A stretch of DNA of 64,000 nucleotides, from the NCBI GenBank assembly GCA_017439675.1, contig JAFSIQ010000029.1:17428-81427 (forward strand), written 5' to 3'. The translations under genes were made by a program, and so were the position numbers. The notes beneath the pieces are model-generated. The model had not been told where the DNA came from. It ran no database searches and saw only the letters and a list, made by a program, of their open reading frames with translations. The stretch is from Lachnospiraceae bacterium. Its GTDB lineage: Bacteria; Bacillota; Clostridia; Lachnospirales; Lachnospiraceae. Positions 50,702 to 61,499 of the stretch are shown in pieces (position 1 is the stretch's first letter; each line of letters begins with the position of its first letter).

Positions 50702-50943
50702 CTACCTCTTCCTTAAGTTCTAATTCATATTCGATTAAGTATAGCAAATTGAGTTTGACAAAATCTGTCACTCTTCGCATTTTTCTTTACATATCTTAAG
50801 GTACTTTTATAATTATTTCAGTTGCGTTGTAAGAATTCGTGGATTTGTTGTAAGAATTGTTGATTTTTTAAATTTCATAGATTATATTACTATCAAAGAA
50901 GTGCCATTTATTGGTTTGATTCAGCTTGATTGGAGGGAAACTC

Positions 50944-52932
50944 ATGCGTACCAGAAATTACATTCGACTCTTATTATCTATTCTTAGCATATGCTTTTGT
51001 ATTACTTTTTGCGAGCATACAAGTTATGCTACATCATTTACGGAAGATTATTTGACATACATAGAAAATGAAGATGGAACCCTTACGGTAACCGGTTATG
51101 ATACTAAGCAATATTATGAATACGCTCCTCTAGAAATCAAAAATACGGTTAACGGAAAAACCGTCACAAAAATTGCTGATAAAGCATTCCAAAATCAAAA
51201 CTATCAATACATTGAGATTGATAACAATATTGATATCGGCGATTATGCTTTTTCTAACATTAATGTATCTGGAATCACTTATGCAGACGGCACATCACTG
51301 TCTATCACCATTGGTTCGGACAATACTGGAACCACCAACATCGGTAATTATGCATTTACCTCAGCCAGCTTCTGGTCAAAGGTATACATCAAATCGAATA
51401 TTATTATAAATGATTGTGCTTTTCGCTTGGCATCCTTTTCCCTACAAATTTATCAGCCAGACTCCATCGTAACCCATATCGGCAAACGCGCTTTTGAAAA
51501 TTCCAATTATTCTTCTGGGCTTAATTATGCTGGCTTAGTTACCGTTGACGAATATGCATTTAAAAATTGCCCATTAACCTGTTTCACCATTTCACCTACC
51601 CTAAAGACGTTCAAGGGTACTTTTTCAGATGGTCTTTATGGAGAGTATTCTCATATCTATATTGATAAAGCGGTAACTGATATTTCTTCATTTGGCTTAA
51701 ACAATCTCTCAGCGACTATATTCCACATTAGTAATGGAAGTCCTCTTGCTACCTACTGTTCTAATAATAATATGTTATTCACTGTTACAGAGGACGAGAA
51801 TCCAGATGCCATTTATAGCAAGCCAATTATCGGCCAGCTCATCTCCAACGACATCTTTGATGTAATAGTAACCGGAGATTTTACTGCCAAACTATTCCGC
51901 CTTAAGGAAACCACAAATTCCATTACATTTGACGAAACAGCGATTGTGGACTACCACGGATATCAATACACCATAACCACAATTGGTAGCAATTCCATTG
52001 TGACTAGTGAATTACCATACCTGACTACCATTCATTTTGGTACTACCATTACCAAGCTGTATCATGGTGCTATCTTTGACATGGGAATGAACATTTCGTA
52101 TATATCCTTCGCATATACTAATCCTAGTACAGAAATGGGATCCATTCCTAGTTCTTCCTATTTAACAATCGAATTGCTTCCTTCTGTTACTAGCATTGAA
52201 GCACTATATACAAGCGAATTATCCCAAGTTACCTTTTTGGTACAAGAGAATAGTCCACTCATCCAAATGCTGGTAGACAAGGACCTCATCTTTCAAACTC
52301 CTGGAAGCGAACCAATTACACCAGATTCTCCCGATTATCCCGCAAAGACCACAACGGAATCTGAGTATGCTCCAAATGCACCTAACGCATTAGACCCAAA
52401 TCAAACCGTGACAGATTCCATGACGACTACGGCATCAGACACAAATTCTTCTACTAGCAAAAGACCTGCAATAGGAACTATATTTACTTATACTGACTTG
52501 AAATACAAGGTGACTGGCAAGAAGACGGTAACCTTCATGAAACCTGCTAAAAAAACAATTACCAAGCTCAAGGTACCTGCCTACGTGATATACGATAAAT
52601 ACAAATTCTATGTAACTAAAGTAGCTACAAAGGCTTGTTACAAATGCACCAAGCTCAAAACCGTAGTAATTGGTGCAAACGTAACGCATATCGGCGATAG
52701 TGCATTTGCCAAATGTAGCTCTTTAAGGAAAATCACTTTTGGAAAAAACGTTAAACATCTCGGAAAAAAGGTTTTGTATAATGATAAGAAGTTAGAACAG
52801 ATTACCTTTCAGGGAACAAAGCTCAAATCCATTGGTAAGAAGACATTCCGAAAGGTTCCGAAGCAAGTGGACATCATCGTTCCGCGTTCAAAGGTTAAAA
52901 AGTATTCTCGGTTAATCAATAATGCAATATAA
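50944..52932 (+). CDS. Secreted BspA-like leucine-rich-repeat protein
   Basis: 662 residues with a signal peptide (about 1-30, HTSYA). LRR_5/BspA-type repeats are seen in two blocks: about 70-240 (VTKIADKAFQNQNYQYIEID, IGDYAF, ITIGSDNTGTTNIGNYAFTS, THIGKRAFENSNY) and at the end, about 555-650 (VTKVATKACYKCTKLKTVVI, ANVTHIGDSAFAKCSSLRKI, LKSIGKKTFRKV). A Pro/Thr/Asp-rich linker (about 460-510) separates them. Such proteins are surface or secreted binding proteins. ATG 50944 is chosen because GGAGGG lies seven bases upstream. It has its own bidirectional terminator. Confidence 0.85.
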   Translation: MRTRNYIRLLLSILSICFCITFCEHTSYATSFTEDYLTYIENEDGTLTVTGYDTKQYYEYAPLEIKNTVNGKTVTKIADKAFQNQNYQYIEIDNNIDIGDYAFSNINVSGITYADGTSLSITIGSDNTGTTNIGNYAFTSASFWSKVYIKSNIIINDCAFRLASFSLQIYQPDSIVTHIGKRAFENSNYSSGLNYAGLVTVDEYAFKNCPLTCFTISPTLKTFKGTFSDGLYGEYSHIYIDKAVTDISSFGLNNLSATIFHISNGSPLATYCSNNNMLFTVTEDENPDAIYSKPIIGQLISNDIFDVIVTGDFTAKLFRLKETTNSITFDETAIVDYHGYQYTITTIGSNSIVTSELPYLTTIHFGTTITKLYHGAIFDMGMNISYISFAYTNPSTEMGSIPSSSYLTIELLPSVTSIEALYTSELSQVTFLVQENSPLIQMLVDKDLIFQTPGSEPITPDSPDYPAKTTTESEYAPNAPNALDPNQTVTDSMTTTASDTNSSTSKRPAIGTIFTYTDLKYKVTGKKTVTFMKPAKKTITKLKVPAYVIYDKYKFYVTKVATKACYKCTKLKTVVIGANVTHIGDSAFAKCSSLRKITFGKNVKHLGKKVLYNDKKLEQITFQGTKLKSIGKKTFRKVPKQVDIIVPRSKVKKYSRLINNAI

Positions 52933-52998: not shown

Positions 52999-53763
52999 TC
53001 AATACTCTTTCTTCTTCAAGTCATACCATAAGAACAGTGAGAATAGCACCAACGTAACACAGGACACTATCACCGCAAAAAACATATCATCTATATCAGT
53101 GGAACCTATCTTAGAAATATTCATAATAAACAAATATTTCTGAACTGTTTCCGGTAAATGCATTCCAAATCCAGCCCCTAGCATATAGATACCTAGTCCA
53201 ATTCCTATGGTTGCAGGCACATTTTTTGTCAATGTGCCAATCACGCCCACCAATAAAGTGAAGGCTGTAATAGTACTCCAACCAATCAACACATAGTAAA
53301 CCAACTGTTCTAAGGTGTACTGCCCATAGAAGATATCCCGGACTCCCTTGGATATCAGAACCGGAACAATCATACCAACAAAATGAAGAAGCGTAGCTAT
53401 AATCAGTAAAATCCCAACCTTACCAAAACCTAACTTTGTCCGGCTAGACAATAACATCACATATTTCATTGTTCCACGGGAATAATCCTCTGCTACAATA
53501 ATCGCAGCCATCACCGTCGCCACAACGAACAGACAACCGCCATTAAACAACAGGTTGTACAGATAAACAAAAAGCTCGTCACCATTTGCTGCTAAGAACG
53601 TATCTATCATCTGCTGTGCTGCCTCTGAAAGTCCCGAGCTCTTGCTACTGACTACCAAAAACAGGTATTCCACCAATGGCACAAGCAACATAACAAGCAT
53701 ACATATGTATATGGCAATACTTCTGGTACATTTTCTAAATTCACATCCTAACACTCTAATCAT
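52999..53763 (-). CDS. ABC-2-type permease of the RiPP cluster (YydJ-like position)
   Basis: 254 residues with six predicted membrane helices (about 17-40, 68-95, 115-140, 150-170, 180-200, 220-245) and the ABC-2 pattern (VVATVMAAIIVAEDYSRGTM, where polymerised permeases couple to the ATPase). Start ATG 53763 lies nine bases after GGAGG and overlaps the ATPase stop by eight bases, so translation is coupled. With the ATPase upstream it should form an exporter or an immunity pump for the modified peptides. In B. subtilis the equivalent YydIJ pair is thought to export or protect against YydF. Confidence 0.85.
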   Translation of the reverse strand: MIRVLGCEFRKCTRSIAIYICMLVMLLVPLVEYLFLVVSSKSSGLSEAAQQMIDTFLAANGDELFVYLYNLLFNGGCLFVVATVMAAIIVAEDYSRGTMKYVMLLSSRTKLGFGKVGILLIIATLLHFVGMIVPVLISKGVRDIFYGQYTLEQLVYYVLIGWSTITAFTLLVGVIGTLTKNVPATIGIGLGIYMLGAGFGMHLPETVQKYLFIMNISKIGSTDIDDMFFAVIVSCVTLVLFSLFLWYDLKKKEY

Positions 53764-54493
53764 GAATCCCATCCTCCGTATACTTAATGAAAAATTCCTC
53801 AAAGCTATCTACATCATTACCAACCTTCTGATTCACCTCGTCGATGCTTTCCTCCACGACCACCTCACCATCACGGATAATTCCGATTCTGGTACATGTA
53901 TGCCATGCTTCACCAAGTAAATGGGTGGACAAAATGACCGTCTTCCCAAACTCCTCTGACAAACGACGAATCAAGGTTCGCATATACTTAATGCCATTAG
54001 GGTCAAGGCCATTGGTTGGCTCATCCAAAATGATAATCTCTGGATCATTCAAGAAAACTCTGGAAATAGCAAGTCTTTGTCTCATTCCCTGAGAATAATT
54101 CTTCACAGACACGTTGCGGTCTTCATATAAATCAAAATCCTTCATGATTTGAACGATATCCTTTTCCTTGGTTCCCACCAAAGAACCGAACACCCTTAGA
54201 TTCTCAATACCAGATAAATGATTATAGAAAACTGGTTCATCGATGGAAGCACCAAACACCCTATTGCTCTTACGGTTACGCTTCCACTCCTTTCCCCTGT
54301 AGATAAACTTACCCTCATCAACGGAAACCAGACCAAGCATAGATTTTAATGTAGTGGTTTTTCCCACACCATTCGGACCTAACAGACCATAGATATCTCC
54401 CTCATTTATGGTCATATGAATACCACTCAGCACCTGCTTATCTCCGTATGATTTTTTTATACCTGTCACTTGCAACAATGGATTATCTGTCAT
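53756..54493 (-). CDS. ABC transporter ATPase of the RiPP cluster (YydI-like position)
   Basis: 245 residues with all ATPase motifs: Walker A GLLGPNGVGKTTTLKSML (about 35-52), signature YSQGMRQRLAISRV, Walker B IIILDEPTNGLDP and the H-loop STHLLGEA. It fits the antibiotic-peptide transport subfamily. Its start lies four bases after the M50 protease stop, and its end overlaps the permease start, so the genes are translationally linked. It powers the permease encoded next, probably in the plasma membrane. Confidence 0.93.
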   Translation of the reverse strand: MTDNPLLQVTGIKKSYGDKQVLSGIHMTINEGDIYGLLGPNGVGKTTTLKSMLGLVSVDEGKFIYRGKEWKRNRKSNRVFGASIDEPVFYNHLSGIENLRVFGSLVGTKEKDIVQIMKDFDLYEDRNVSVKNYSQGMRQRLAISRVFLNDPEIIILDEPTNGLDPNGIKYMRTLIRRLSEEFGKTVILSTHLLGEAWHTCTRIGIIRDGEVVVEESIDEVNQKVGNDVDSFEEFFIKYTEDGIHD

Positions 54494-54496
54494 TGT

Positions 54497-55708
54497 TCAT
54501 TCTCCTCTCACTGTTTTATTTAACCCTTTACAGCTTCGTACTATCTTCTTAACAATGGCAACACCTAACTTAATACAAATAAGCACCAGAATCACCATGA
54601 TAAGCTTTGAGTTCGCAATAATATCTATCACAGAACCATGTATTTTGTACTGTTCTGCAAACCATATCATGACATATTTTAGCTGAATATAAGATACTGC
54701 CACCATAAAGCTTATACAGCATAAAAAGTATAATATGTACAAGCATTTAAATCTGATTGTGCCCTTGCCTTTAATGATATCCTTAAACATACCAAAGGAA
54801 TTTTTCCTAAGGTTTGGCTGATTGATAATAGTGGACAACAAATAGTATCCATCTAACGGTAATAGCGGTGACAGATTACAGAACACAAAGGACAGATTCA
54901 TTACCATACACAAATTGGCAATGGTAAGCACCGTTCCCTCGCCAAACGCAGCGAACAAAACGGATATAGCACTCAATAATAGATTGGTGTATATGCCCGC
55001 GCTCCACACAACTAGCTTCTCTTTTTTGGTCAATGTATAGATGCCTGGTATTTTCAAATAAAACATACTAGACAAATTCGCATAGAATCCAAACACAAGA
55101 TTCGATGGAGTCAACCCATAGTATGATGCCACCATCGCATGGGCACTTTCGTGTAACACAATACTGATTAACAAAATTGGCAATGACACAAAAATACTGA
55201 CACCCAAGGATTCATTTAACTTGTAATTATCTAACACAACAAATTTCTCAATCTGGATAAAAAAGAAGCATATACCCAATAATATAGCTACCACCGATAC
55301 ACCAAACATCCAGTGCACAAGGGTTTTATCAATATTTTTAATAGCCTTGCTATATTTACCCAACGGAATGTCTACAAGCTTTAAGAAAAACCGTTCAAAC
55401 TCACTCTTTTCCACCTTGTCTGTATTGGGGTTATTGACAATCAAATCTGCTTTTTCCAATTCGCTAAGTAAATACTCCACATCCAATTCAATTTTTTCCA
55501 CTGTATTCAACTTGTGTTGAATTTGCTCTAGCGTATTCGTTCCATCTAGATATTTAATAAATGCCATGACATATTCTAAAATATCCTCCGGCACCTTAAT
55601 ATACTTATCTCTACTAATAGAACCAATACAATAGATGCGTCCTTCTTTATTTTCGTATAACAAAGAAGACTTGATGTCTTCTATTGCTATGGGTCTGTAA
55701 TCACTCAC
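54497..55708 (-). CDS. M50-type membrane metalloprotease with N-terminal PqqD/RRE-like domain (YydH-like)
   Basis: 403 residues. The N-terminal 95 residues are soluble and have the winged-helix look of a PqqD-like RiPP recognition element (IYCIGSISRDKYIKVPEDIL, then LNTVEKIELDVEYLLSELEK). The rest has eight or so membrane helices with the zinc site HESAH (186-190) and the downstream Asp motif in LLPLDGYYLL (about 278-287), as in site-2-type proteases. B. subtilis YydH has the same membrane-protease class and the same place in its operon. It probably recognises the leader and cuts it within or near the membrane; this is inferred. GTG 55708 has an AGAGG site; the gene starts 18 bases after the maturase stop. 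Confidence 0.85.
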   Translation of the reverse strand: MSDYRPIAIEDIKSSLLYENKEGRIYCIGSISRDKYIKVPEDILEYVMAFIKYLDGTNTLEQIQHKLNTVEKIELDVEYLLSELEKADLIVNNPNTDKVEKSEFERFFLKLVDIPLGKYSKAIKNIDKTLVHWMFGVSVVAILLGICFFFIQIEKFVVLDNYKLNESLGVSIFVSLPILLISIVLHESAHAMVASYYGLTPSNLVFGFYANLSSMFYLKIPGIYTLTKKEKLVVWSAGIYTNLLLSAISVLFAAFGEGTVLTIANLCMVMNLSFVFCNLSPLLPLDGYYLLSTIINQPNLRKNSFGMFKDIIKGKGTIRFKCLYILYFLCCISFMVAVSYIQLKYVMIWFAEQYKIHGSVIDIIANSKLIMVILVLICIKLGVAIVKKIVRSCKGLNKTVRGE

Positions 55709-55726
55709 GCTACCTCTTCACACTCC

Positions 55727-57073
55727 TTAGGACAAACTATTTACATAGTCAGCTAAATCAATCAGCACCTTTTCCGCCATTTGAATATTCATCTGGCAAA
55801 ATCCTTCTTCATAGTTGGCAATGGAATCATTTTGATAATAATTCATACCATGACATCCACAGCAGAAACGCTGTAGCATACAATCATTGCACTTCTCATC
55901 CTTCGCCTTGGCGCGCTCTAAAAATAAAGTACGGATTTCTCTCATTTTTTCACTTTGGAAAATGTTTTCTTCGAAAATACTTCCCATATTCAAATGCTCC
56001 ACATCTGTGAACATAAAACATGGATAAATGTTTCCATGAATATCCACGGACAAGGTGCCCAGTCCCGCCGGACAGATATAATCACTGTACTGCTTATGTC
56101 TTAACGCATCAATTAGGCGCTGTACCAAGGAATAGGTATATGCACCATCTGATTCTAGCGAACCAAAAATATCATCAACAGATTGCACAAAAGCACTGCG
56201 GTCTTTTAATTGCAAGCTCTCTACCGCTGTTGACACTGGAACAATATGAAAGCTTGTCTCTGGAAACATCGGCTGAAAATGATTTGCAATATCCTTGATG
56301 GAAATTCCATTTTCCACATGCTTTTGATTATAGGTAACCTCAATCGTTGTAGGCTGTTTGGTTCGCTTATACAGCTCTTTGATATTGCTTATAATTCGAT
56401 TATAGGTTCCATTTCCGTTATTGTCATATCGATTTAAATCATGTATGTACTGATCTCCATCTAAGCTTACGGTAACATTAAGACCATATTTTTCGATTAG
56501 GTCTATTGCCTCTGTAGTCAAAAGTGTTCCATTGGTACATACACCAAAGGATGGCACATTCTCAATTTCACCATTTTCCTTTTTCTCCAGGAAATACTCA
56601 CATACACCAGCAATTACTTCCAAATTAATCAGTGGTTCTCCACCAAAAAACTGTAAGATTCGAATGGAATCAAAGAAATCGCAGAATACATCTACCGCCT
56701 TCTTTGCAACCTCCATCTTCATAATGCCCTCTTCCGACTGATAGGAACCACCACACGCATAACAATATGCACACTTCAAGTTACAAACATTTGTCACATT
56801 GAGAACAAGACGGTCTAATGTAATCCGCTTCTGCTGTTCTGGTTGTTCCTCACGAAAAACCAACGGGTCCTCATCCTCACATAACAATTCACAAATACTA
56901 TCCAAGTCCTCCTTGCTCACATTGTATTTTTCTCTTGCCACTTCAACACCGTCGGACAGAATACTTCCATATATGTCCTTTACAATTGGTTCCACAACAT
57001 AAAAATCCAAGGTATCCTTATTAAACGCAATTAATTCTTTTGGACTTTTTTCAACAAATACTATTCTTCCCAT
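55727..57073 (-). CDS. SPASM-type radical SAM peptide maturase
   Basis: 448 residues. N-terminal 80-90 residues form a RiPP-recognition-like domain; the radical SAM motif is Cys97-x3-Cys101-x2-Cys104 (NVCNLKCAYCYACGGSY), followed by FFGGEP (GGE motif) and SLDGD. The C-terminal SPASM part is Cys-rich: ICPAGLGTLSVDIHGNIYPC, CNDCMLQRFCCGCHG and FCQMN, enough for two extra iron-sulfur clusters. Such enzymes make thioether (sactionine/ranthionine) or other C-C/C-S bonds in peptides. The Cys-rich precursors encoded directly upstream are the obvious substrates. B. subtilis YydG in the same position is an epimerase, so the reaction must be tested. ATG 57073 follows GAAGGG; the gap to the last precursor contains a stable hairpin. 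Confidence 0.92.
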   Translation of the reverse strand: MGRIVFVEKSPKELIAFNKDTLDFYVVEPIVKDIYGSILSDGVEVAREKYNVSKEDLDSICELLCEDEDPLVFREEQPEQQKRITLDRLVLNVTNVCNLKCAYCYACGGSYQSEEGIMKMEVAKKAVDVFCDFFDSIRILQFFGGEPLINLEVIAGVCEYFLEKKENGEIENVPSFGVCTNGTLLTTEAIDLIEKYGLNVTVSLDGDQYIHDLNRYDNNGNGTYNRIISNIKELYKRTKQPTTIEVTYNQKHVENGISIKDIANHFQPMFPETSFHIVPVSTAVESLQLKDRSAFVQSVDDIFGSLESDGAYTYSLVQRLIDALRHKQYSDYICPAGLGTLSVDIHGNIYPCFMFTDVEHLNMGSIFEENIFQSEKMREIRTLFLERAKAKDEKCNDCMLQRFCCGCHGMNYYQNDSIANYEEGFCQMNIQMAEKVLIDLADYVNSLS

Positions 57074-57128
57074 ATTTTTTACCCTTCGCTATCTGAATGC
57101 TCATTAACATAGTTTCTACTCCAATGTT

Positions 57129-57180
57129 GTGCTTAGTCTTCTGGTTACCAGATAACAAATGTGGGCAGAAGACTAAACAC
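57129..57180 (-). other. Stable hairpin between precursor genes and maturase gene
   Basis: TGTTTAGTCTTCTG (minus strand) pairs with CAGAAGACTAAGCA over 14 positions (one mismatched or wobble pair) and has no U-run. Such hairpins in RiPP operons often protect the abundant precursor mRNA and lower read-through into the enzyme gene; that role is inferred. Confidence 0.7.
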
Positions 57181-57194
57181 ATTTGGGTTAAGTA

Positions 57195-57326
57195 TTAAAG
57201 TACCTTAACGCAGGCAAATCCACACCAGGCTCCGCCTTCACAAAAGAAGCCACATAATGCTCCACCAACAGGAGTAATTGTATCTTCTAAGATCTCCAAT
57301 TTTTGCATTTCTACTTTTTTTACCAT
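57195..57326 (-). CDS. Cys-rich RiPP precursor peptide 3
   Basis: 43 residues, too short for standard gene calling. The leader MVKKVEMQKLEILEDTITP (1-19) matches precursor 2. The core has four Cys (25, 29, 35, 39) spaced Cx3C-x5-Cx3C in a Gly/Ala/Phe-rich segment (GGALCGFFCEGG, AWCGFACVKVL). ATG 57326 has GGAG nine bases upstream. It is the last of the three precursor genes, directly before the hairpin and the radical SAM gene. The leader-core boundary near the Thr-Pro at 18-19 is a guess. Confidence 0.8.
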   Translation of the reverse strand: MVKKVEMQKLEILEDTITPVGGALCGFFCEGGAWCGFACVKVL

Positions 57327-57404
57327 ACTTTTTCTCTCCAATCAGTTATATTACACAACGCAAATTCGCACTCGCGCCATACAAGTAATATGTACTAAAT
57401 TATT

Positions 57405-57533
57405 TTAGAAACCACTACAGCCAAAACCGCAGATTGCACCTGTACAGCTACCGCCACAAAGCAATCCAAGACTACCTGGCGTAATTGTGTTCTCTAACAC
57501 TTCGATTTTTGACATCTCAATCTTTTTAATCAT
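57405..57533 (-). CDS. Cys-rich RiPP precursor peptide 2
   Basis: 42 residues. Leader MIKKIEMSKIEVLENTITP (1-19); core GSLGLLCGGSCTGAI then CGFGCSGF with Cys at 26, 30, 35, 39, spaced Cx3C-x4-Cx3C. ATG 57533 follows GGAGG by nine bases. The leader is 70% or more similar to precursor 3 while the core is free to vary except for the Cys, the usual pattern for co-processed RiPP precursors. Confidence 0.82.
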   Translation of the reverse strand: MIKKIEMSKIEVLENTITPGSLGLLCGGSCTGAICGFGCSGF

Positions 57534-57590
57534 ATTTTACTGCCTCCGCGTTTCATAAAATGATTCACATTTGTTACAGCATTTCAGATT

Positions 57591-57752
57591 TTACCAACCT
57601 GCGCATGCTGCACCGCCGCACCAGCCGCCACATCCAGCTCCAGCACAAGCAACTCCACATCCAGCTCCAACAATGTACTTCAAAAGTGGAATTGCTGGTG
57701 TTACTGCTTCCTCCATTGATGCTACCTGAGATAAATCAACCTTCTTAATCAT
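57591..57752 (-). CDS. Cys-rich RiPP precursor peptide 1 (longest, diverged)
   Basis: 53 residues; ATG 57752 (MIKKVDLSQV) is used, with a GGCAGGTGAAAGG site. An upstream in-frame codon would add eight residues not matching the other leaders. The leader MIKKVDLSQVASMEEAVTPA is only loosely like the other two. The core has five Cys (32, 36, 41, 45, 50; x3, x4, x3, x4 spacing) in a Gly/Ala/Trp-rich tail (GAGCGVACAGAG, CGGWCGGAACAGW). It is the promoter-proximal precursor gene. Confidence 0.82.
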   Translation of the reverse strand: MIKKVDLSQVASMEEAVTPAIPLLKYIVGAGCGVACAGAGCGGWCGGAACAGW

Positions 57753-58059: not shown

Positions 58060-58092
58060 AACAGTGAGACAGTTGCAAACCGTCCCACTGTT
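58060..58092 (-). terminator. Terminator of asnB
   Basis: AACAGTGAGAC pairs with GTCCCACTGTT (one G-T pair); the minus tail is TTCTTTT. It lies just after the stop at 58097. Confidence 0.8.
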
Positions 58093-60034: not shown

Positions 60035-60625
60035 TCACCTAGTAAACGGTTGTAAAATTGGCTGAATCTGTTCCCCTTCCAATGCAAATTCCAAAGTAGG
60101 AATCAATCTGTCCGTATGCGCAATCAAGGAATTGGTTTTCTTAATTGGATCATCCTGACCAAACGGCACAAAATATATATTTTTTGCATTCAACAACAAT
60201 CCTATATTTTTCATATTCATTCCCATGGCATCATTTGTGGAAACAGAAATTACCAATGGTTTGTTGTTGCGGAGATGCGCTTTTGCTCCCATCAACACCG
60301 GGGTATCCGTAATACCATTCGCTAATTTTGCAATTGTATTTCCACTGCACGGAAAAACCACATAGATATCTAAGTACGACTGCGGTCCTATCGGCTCTGC
60401 GCCCTCAATCGTACAAATCGGTTTTCGCCCTGTAATTGCTTCCGCCCTTTCCATAAATTCCTCTGGCTTTCCAAATCGGCTACTAATCTGTTGCGATGCA
60501 TTTGAAAAAATGGTATAAACCTCTGCTCCTGTCTCAACTAATTTCTCCATTTCTTTAAATATCTTATCAAATGTACAAAATGAGCCCGTTAAAGCAATTC
60601 CTATTTTCTTTCCTTTCAAATTCAT
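60035..60625 (-). CDS. spoVFB: Dipicolinate synthase subunit B
   Basis: 196 residues of the flavoprotein-like DpaB family (MNLKGKKIGIALTGSFCTFD at the start, VVFPCSGNTIAKLANGITDT, SVSTNDAMGMNMKNIG). Together with DpaA it converts dihydrodipicolinate to dipicolinic acid, which fills the spore core with calcium and gives heat resistance. It starts 14 bases after the spoVFA stop, with a GAGGG site, so it is translated from the same mRNA in the mother cell. Confidence 0.92.
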   Translation of the reverse strand: MNLKGKKIGIALTGSFCTFDKIFKEMEKLVETGAEVYTIFSNASQQISSRFGKPEEFMERAEAITGRKPICTIEGAEPIGPQSYLDIYVVFPCSGNTIAKLANGITDTPVLMGAKAHLRNNKPLVISVSTNDAMGMNMKNIGLLLNAKNIYFVPFGQDDPIKKTNSLIAHTDRLIPTLEFALEGEQIQPILQPFTR

Positions 60626-60638
60626 TTCAATCCCTCTT

Positions 60639-61499
60639 CTATTTCATGTTATCAATTACATATTCTGCCAAACCCTGTGCAGCAGTCTTTGGTGCATATT
60701 TTCCGGGTAATCCATAACAATATAATACCCTTATTCCAAATTTCTTTGCCACTTCACTCTCCACACCCCCCGGTGCAGACGCAATATCAATCACAAGCGT
60801 ATCCTTTCTCACACCTCTTAGGATATCCTGAGAAAGCACTACTGCCGGAATTGTATTATAAATATATTCATAATCCGAAATATATTCCTTCAGTTCACTT
60901 AATGCCAACATCTCCATACCATAGGTATATGCCTGTGCCAATTCTTCCTCACTTTGGCTACACACGCATACTTTTGCCCCCAAACCCTTTAACTTTTGTG
61001 CAAGAACCCTTCCGCATCTTCCATAACCCAATACTAACGTCTTACTTCCATGAATACTGGTTTTTTGATGTTGCAACGCCTCTAAAATACTACCTTCCGC
61101 TGTTGCAACTGCATTTTTTATAACATAAGGTTCGTATTTCATAAAATCGTAACAGGTAACCCCCCGCTCTTTACATGCATCAATAAATTCATCAGGCACA
61201 ATTCCGCCAAATATCTTTTGTCCTTTTTGTAACAAAGCATCAAATTGTACCTTCAACAAATCCGATAGCGGTTGCTGACTGCTAAGTAAATTACCTTTAA
61301 AAAGCGGTATTCCACCCACAATACATCCAGCCGATTCTATTGCCTCCTTCAGTGACTGCGCCTCTACAAAAGAATCCTTTATTTCATTGTCTGTCGAAAG
61401 TCCATATCCAATTACACGATATCCTTTTTTTAACAGATATGGTGCCATATATGCTATACGCGCATCCCCACCAACCAAGGCGACATCAAATTGTCTCAT
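60639..61499 (-). CDS. spoVFA: Dipicolinate synthase subunit A
   Basis: 286 residues: N-terminal DpaA domain (DVALVGGDARIAYMAPYLLK) and C-terminal NAD(P)-binding Rossmann domain (SKTLVLGYGRCGRVLAQKLK, IASAPGGVES, YGLPGKYAPKTAAQGLAEYV). It is the oxidoreductase-like subunit of dipicolinate synthase. A sigma-K-like promoter lies 30 bases upstream. The presence of spoVFAB implies the organism or its recent ancestor makes endospores; many other Clostridia use an EtfA route instead. Confidence 0.93.
   Translation of the reverse strand: MRQFDVALVGGDARIAYMAPYLLKKGYRVIGYGLSTDNEIKDSFVEAQSLKEAIESAGCIVGGIPLFKGNLLSSQQPLSDLLKVQFDALLQKGQKIFGGIVPDEFIDACKERGVTCYDFMKYEPYVIKNAVATAEGSILEALQHQKTSIHGSKTLVLGYGRCGRVLAQKLKGLGAKVCVCSQSEEELAQAYTYGMEMLALSELKEYISDYEYIYNTIPAVVLSQDILRGVRKDTLVIDIASAPGGVESEVAKKFGIRVLYCYGLPGKYAPKTAAQGLAEYVIDNMK

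Follow-up and report, generated by a model that had tools for sequence, protein, structure and literature searches.

A radical SAM/SPASM gene cluster with CGxxC precursors and an M50 protease in a Lachnospiraceae genome

The yydFGHIJ (epeXEPAB) operon of Bacillus subtilis, described in PMC7026026, begins with a precursor gene, after which come the genes for a radical SAM enzyme, an M50-type protease, the ATPase of an ABC transporter and a permease. The same order, as the original prediction recognized, is found at positions 52999-57752 of a 64,000-nucleotide stretch of contig JAFSIQ010000029.1 from a Lachnospiraceae bacterium (the whole stretch is called the window), where every gene predicted for the cluster is present at its predicted position. 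The likeness extends to the probable roles of the protease and the ABC pair; the differences are that the window has three Cys-rich precursors (pA, pB and pC), a CteB-like maturase with a full set of SPASM cysteines and a front resembling a recognition element (RRE) of ribosomally synthesized and post-translationally modified peptides (RiPPs), and a protease nearer to MpaP of the daptides. CteB/ScfB (SCIFF) and PapB share the radical SAM-SPASM architecture with an RRE-like front, and MpaP is likewise an RRE-fused M50 leader peptidase. In the sactipeptides streptosactin and ruminococcin C, too, radical SAM enzymes act on short cores that contain Cys (PMC8326336); the window maturase fits the corresponding GggB and RumMC models weakly (104.3 bits against a cut-off of 650, and 88.6 against 720).

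In the window, short precursors with a conserved leader adjoin a modifying enzyme that bears an RRE, the arrangement expected of a RiPP cluster. On balance it seems probable that the cluster is of this kind, with an RRE-guided SPASM maturase placing Cys thioethers in CGxxC cores and an RRE-M50 protease and an ABC pair acting downstream. Genes, domains, the precursor family and the co-occurrence of genes and motifs were read directly from the output of the tools. Each part of the cluster belongs to a familiar kind; the precursor family looks new, and searches of open-access PMC papers, covering listings, abstracts and passages, turned up no description of this family or of the combination of parts.

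The CGxxC precursor family

The strict pattern CGxxC-x3..7-CGxxC occurs in three of the 640 window open reading frames (ORFs) of 25-110 amino acids (aa), exactly pA, pB and pC, and in no ORF of 20 dinucleotide shuffles, indicating that the three are real genes rather than chance; the looser Cx3C-x3..7-Cx3C finds 6/640 (three of them unrelated) and one ORF across the 20 shuffles. The Cx3C-x4/5-Cx3C spacing attributed to them is correct for pB, pC and, with a fifth Cys, pA. Purine-rich Shine-Dalgarno-like stretches, judged by eye, precede all three genes, and the peptides end in W, F and L, respectively. None matches NCBIfam or Pfam up to E 1, or NCBIfam up to E 10. The precursor frames, on whose conservation the prediction depended, recur in relatives: precursors akin to pA, pB and pC adjoin related maturases in other genomes, and the core of pC resembles that of an Anaerocolumna precursor (locus L054; 65% over 20 aa).

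In a set of 31 precursors, all 30 Cx3C pairs are CGxxC; loop shuffles in a 27-row set, from which two L227 rows, the L034 row and one L225 candidate (the second) are absent, never gave more than 24 of 29. A leader strand, phi-x-phi-x-E-phi, is present in 24/31 (shuffled mean 2.4, maximum 8), rising to 27/31 when E, Q or K is permitted (shuffled maximum 12). The rows of L046, L047, L228, L058 and L028, mostly long branches on the earlier tree, were excluded from the later tree or precursor set, no count includes the L228 or L229 precursors, and outgroup candidates outside 350-560 aa (L029) were excluded from the earlier tree. Three precursor rows (L032 third, L055 and L225 second) are one codon off and the L231 protease row starts one codon early, by which the motif counts were judged unaffected. 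At L225 (4749-5883), precursors of 31-33 aa carry a single terminal CGGVC or CGIGC and are flanked by membrane-protein-like genes of about 235 aa.

The RRE-M50 protease and its leader motif

The RRE-like front claimed for the M50 protease is borne out by its PqqD-like N-terminus (hhalign probability 92.7, E 4.2e-7, score 37.7, against 23 PqqD sequences from the order to which the window belongs); no score among 100 column shuffles exceeds 14.9, and for the C-terminal part the probability is 0.1. Modelled alone, the protease reached a pLDDT of 41.1, and the fold was not used. It matches the daptide MpaP model NF041824 over residues 20-376 at 3e-27 (95.7 bits, below the cut-off of 300) and the YydH/LiaK model NF058609 at 1.6e-11 (44.4 bits, cut-off 225). 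Because the MpaP model fits much better, 'yyd' describes gene order here and not demonstrated descent. A true epipeptide (yyd/epe) family member, to which the gene order and the weak YydH/LiaK match would point, is very improbable given the CteB-like maturase and the MpaP-nearer protease, and membership by descent is not favoured. A daptide was also rejected, the resemblance being confined to the protease: the window precursors are not Thr-ended, and no further modifying enzyme lies within 52999-57752. The ABC ATPase gives 201.7 bits with the lantibiotic protection model TIGR03740 (cut-off 309.75).

Mapping of the gene order across genomes, as the original prediction had proposed, shows the window architecture at L033 (precursor, radical SAM, M50, ABC and two permeases) and at L292, which resembles L033 and whose radical SAM enzyme, M50 protease and ABC ATPase are 34%, 33% and 40% identical to those of the window; L231 has three precursors, a radical SAM enzyme (42%) and an M50 protease (38%) before its contig ends. 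The hosts of L231 and L292 share the window's class but belong to a different family (f64). HExxH and DGY are conserved in all four M50 clusters, the latter as SDGY in L033. In the stretches examined, Cys precursors without M50 occur at L054, L055, L236, L031, L223, L225 and L291.

The motif LE(D/E/N)xxxP, searched with a pattern that also accepts M in place of L and T in place of E and was composed after the M50 set had been seen, is present in 8/8 precursors of the four M50 clusters versus 0/23 other precursors; by cluster, it marks 4/4 with M50 versus 0/7 Cys clusters without (post hoc Fisher p 0.003, kinship ignored). In the sister pair L291/L292 (support 100/99), L292 has both M50 and the motif and L291 has neither. 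M50 presence requires four changes on the tree, no fewer than with shuffled labels, and so is not tied to a single branch. That the motif tracks M50, even within the sister pair, suggests from the sequences that it is the leader code of the protease. The M50 clusters would then carry two separable leader signals, apparently directed at the maturase and the protease respectively; such a pair could be useful in peptide engineering.

Thioether formation and its alternatives

The full SPASM Cys set predicted for the maturase is confirmed by seven cysteines (C334, C352, C395, C398, C404, C407 and C426) that are invariant in a 13-row alignment, and the nearest solved structure, both by sequence and by fold, is CteB. 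In the proposed pathway, each precursor would be bound by its leader strand, (V/I)-x-(L/M)-x-(Q/K/E)-(V/I/L), at the N-terminal RRE of the maturase. The radical SAM site, together with a pair of auxiliary clusters in the SPASM domain, would then link Cys residues through intramolecular thioethers within the CGxxC repeats, which are rich in Gly; the acceptor residues would probably lie inside or adjoining the CGxxC loops. By analogy with MpaP and EpeP, the M50 protease may use its own RRE to recognize, or to cut at or near, LE(D/E/N)xxxP just ahead of the core, with release of the product at the membrane. Export of the peptide or protection of the producer, as proposed for YydIJ, may fall to the ABC pair. 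The protective role of YydIJ was minor when tested (PMC7026026). The end product may be antibacterial or a signal.

Several observations weigh against this pathway. The maturase falls below the cut-offs of the PapB (NF047865; 198.5 bits, cut-off 340), SCIFF (TIGR03974; 156.1 bits, cut-off 425) and nif11 models, and the PapB model gives SCIFF-type maturases higher scores (272-298 bits), so that proximity to PapB is not a specific sign. CX3D/E motifs, which PapA-type precursors have (PMC9413430), number zero in pA, pB and pC. The RRE of the maturase itself is weak in sequence (hhalign probability 22.9), and pA, pB and pC fit the leader strand in its looser form only. The L292 core with two Cys and the L033 core with three lack CGxxC despite the presence of M50, the protease motif was defined post hoc, and deletion of epeP did not fully abolish EpeX production. 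The Cys pairs could also form disulfides or bind metal. SCIFF is rejected for the window maturase, which scores below the TIGR03974 cut-off. The family search that the original prediction called for yielded a CteB-like maturase and precursors outside NCBIfam and Pfam but no assignment to the PapB, SCIFF or nif11 families. Of the proposed union of yyd logistics with sactipeptide or ranthipeptide chemistry, the gene order is supported, and a thioether of either type (to the alpha carbon in sactipeptides, to another atom in ranthipeptides) is a prediction.

A simple thioether account is further complicated by relatives with Cys-free precursors. The maturases of L032, L224, L226 and L227, 33-39% identical to that of the window, adjoin tandem small ORFs that are Cys-free with the start codons chosen, and the L034 maturase (30%) adjoins one such ORF. 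Cys-free rows make up 10/27 and 13/31 of the two precursor sets and nest inside the maturase clade of a tree with unresolved deep forks; from this position it follows that either the chemistry has shifted along with its substrate or Cys is not the whole point. The Cys trait takes two changes on the earlier tree (8/500 shuffles as low) and three on the later (56/500). Eight of the ten Cys-free peptides of the 27-row set have the leader strand, and (T/S/N/A)G-phi-phi, which replaces CGxxC in many of them, matches 11 times in the 13 Cys-free peptides of the larger set (shuffled mean 0.79, maximum 5), unevenly, with no match in six of the 13 and six of the 11 matches from L227. The choice of thioethers over YydG-type epimerization stands in part: the maturase, with its SPASM, is nearer to CteB than to YydG/EpeE, but close maturases adjoin Cys-free precursors. 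At L226 (4556-8221) and L227 (6223-9804), the tandem Cys-free small ORFs have GG leaders and a second radical SAM gene adjoins them, of SPASM type in L226, and the L227 ORFs carry repeated TNGIISK units; these loci are possibly a separate undescribed RiPP type.

The Cys-free relatives would be explained if the maturase altered a Gly-flanked aliphatic or aromatic residue, by epimerization or by forming a cyclopropane or C-C bond, with disulfides between the cysteines arising later; the relatives would then keep the target and lose the disulfides. This is unlikely, since CteB is nearest in both sequence and fold and since CGxxC is invariant wherever Cx3C occurs in the precursor set, a strictness that a late disulfide would not need. 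A metal-binding or Cys-based signalling peptide, with metal or disulfides at the CGxxC pairs and some minor, unconnected alteration by the maturase, is improbable: two CGxxC pairs per peptide do resemble a four-Cys metal site, but L292 and L225 peptides have two Cys and L033 has three, and the M50 protease and ABC pair resemble RiPP export and self-protection modules.

Alongside thioether formation in the window, a broader proposal is offered tentatively as a possibility: an undescribed RiPP family with one leader strand (phi-x-phi-x-E-phi) and two interchangeable cores (CGxxC, or Cys-free (T/S/N/A)G-phi-phi), in which the radical would arise at a Gly-flanked site, the partner offered (Cys or other) would set the bond, and the RRE-M50 protease with its LE(D/E/N)xxxP code would be an add-on in some clusters. 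The precursor family is defined and testable, and nature supplies its own control: among maturases that share 33-42% identity with the window enzyme, some adjoin CGxxC precursors and others Cys-free ones. Comparing the two could reveal what directs a SPASM radical enzyme towards a thioether or towards a different bond. The products, short and rich in Gly and Cys, may be antibacterial.

Locus layout, distribution and neighbouring genes

All seven genes of the cluster are co-directional and tightly packed (Table 1). The 5' end of the permease gene reflects a reading of the ATGATTAG overlap with the ABC ATPase stop; the ORF list has an alternative TTG start at 53802. The gap between precursors and maturase (57074-57194) folds at -33.5 kcal/mol (z -4.15; 0/200 shuffles equally low), and its hairpin possibly sets the ratio of precursor to maturase. 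A 15-bp terminator-like hairpin (58060-58092) separates asnB from the cluster.

Table 1. Features of the window cluster
Feature	Position	Strand	Details
Precursor pA	57591..57752	minus	53 aa, 5 Cys, leader motif MEEAVTP
Precursor pB	57405..57533	minus	42 aa, CGGSC-x4-CGFGC, leader motif LENTITP
Precursor pC	57195..57326	minus	43 aa, CGFFC-x5-CGFAC, leader motif LEDTITP
RNA hairpin, 16-bp, in precursors/maturase gap	57128..57181	minus	from folding energy; possible role in precursor:enzyme ratio
Radical SAM/SPASM maturase	55727..57073	minus	448 aa, N-terminal RRE-like domain at residues about 1-65
RRE-M50 intramembrane metalloprotease	54497..55708	minus	403 aa; RRE about 26-90, HESAH 186-190, LDGY 285-288
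ABC transporter ATPase	53756..54493	minus	nearest NCBIfam model TIGR03740
ABC-2 type permease	52999..53763	minus	PF12730, 1e-9

Within the genus, 22/26 genomes match the maturase at 1e-30, all except the window's own copy at only 27-31% identity. These relatives were rejected as the same enzyme: the two tested, L023 (the separate SCIFF maturase of the source genome) and L002, are SCIFF maturases (TIGR03974, 796.1 and 805.1 bits). The maturase query finds 8/397 family genomes at 1e-42; a six-row alignment finds 8/392 order genomes at 1e-80, 3/391 class genomes at 1e-85 and 2/22 genomes of the L055 genus; and the 13-row alignment finds 3/86 at 1e-75 within the G1042 family. The query genome is part of these counts, and the figures for the class, the L055 genus and the G1042 family also cover genomes found before. 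Named hosts are Anaerocolumna sp. AGMB13025 (L054, 39%) and Enterococcus ureilyticus (L055, 37%), both from a set of 80 loci of which seven were annotated. The protease query matches 8/397 family genomes at 1e-6, and the L033 protease matches 1/200 genomes at 1e-15, itself; with so few matches, the M50 form is rare. The first locus scan with the M50 protease and a viral scan with the protease alignment gave no match.

Carriage as phage or plasmid cargo was rejected: the phage search returned 11 records (25-28% among the ten matches listed), and the plasmid search gave three records for the maturase (29-31%), four partial records for the protease and none for the L054 maturase at 1e-40. In a separate viral scan, 80 loci at 21-38% identity were retained for the maturase. 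The asnB gene is present at 1e-150 in 14/26 genus genomes, the window's own included. Eight stretches behind it were taken and seven annotated (two short, 2.7 and 6.1 kb; L287, 174 bases, was left out), and in these seven genomes no cluster or window flank gene was found, bar generic ABC ATPases (21-28%); because the flanks behind asnB differ among genomes, no empty site is definable.

IS21-type transposase and IstB pairs directly adjoin the clusters at L236 (3402-5596) and L292 (11587-13883), and these istA/istB-like neighbours hint at mobility. A small DUF3796 protein follows the ABC gene in both L054 (9195-9587) and L055 (9162-9545) and is a candidate immunity protein. Radical SAM and M50 genes adjoin other transporters at L046, L047, L048 and L052. 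L046 (1114-7601) and L047 (6305-12066) have a different radical SAM and M50 pair with a protein of 825-834 aa and an ABC ATPase, and fall outside the clade on the tree, which did not include L048 and L052. In the window, a BspA-type leucine-rich repeat protein (50926-52932) adjoins the cluster in convergent orientation. The source genome comprises 1.99 Mb at a stated completeness of 70%. A flavoprotein and a DpaA-like protein (60035-61499) resemble dipicolinate synthase subunits, and the source organism may therefore sporulate.
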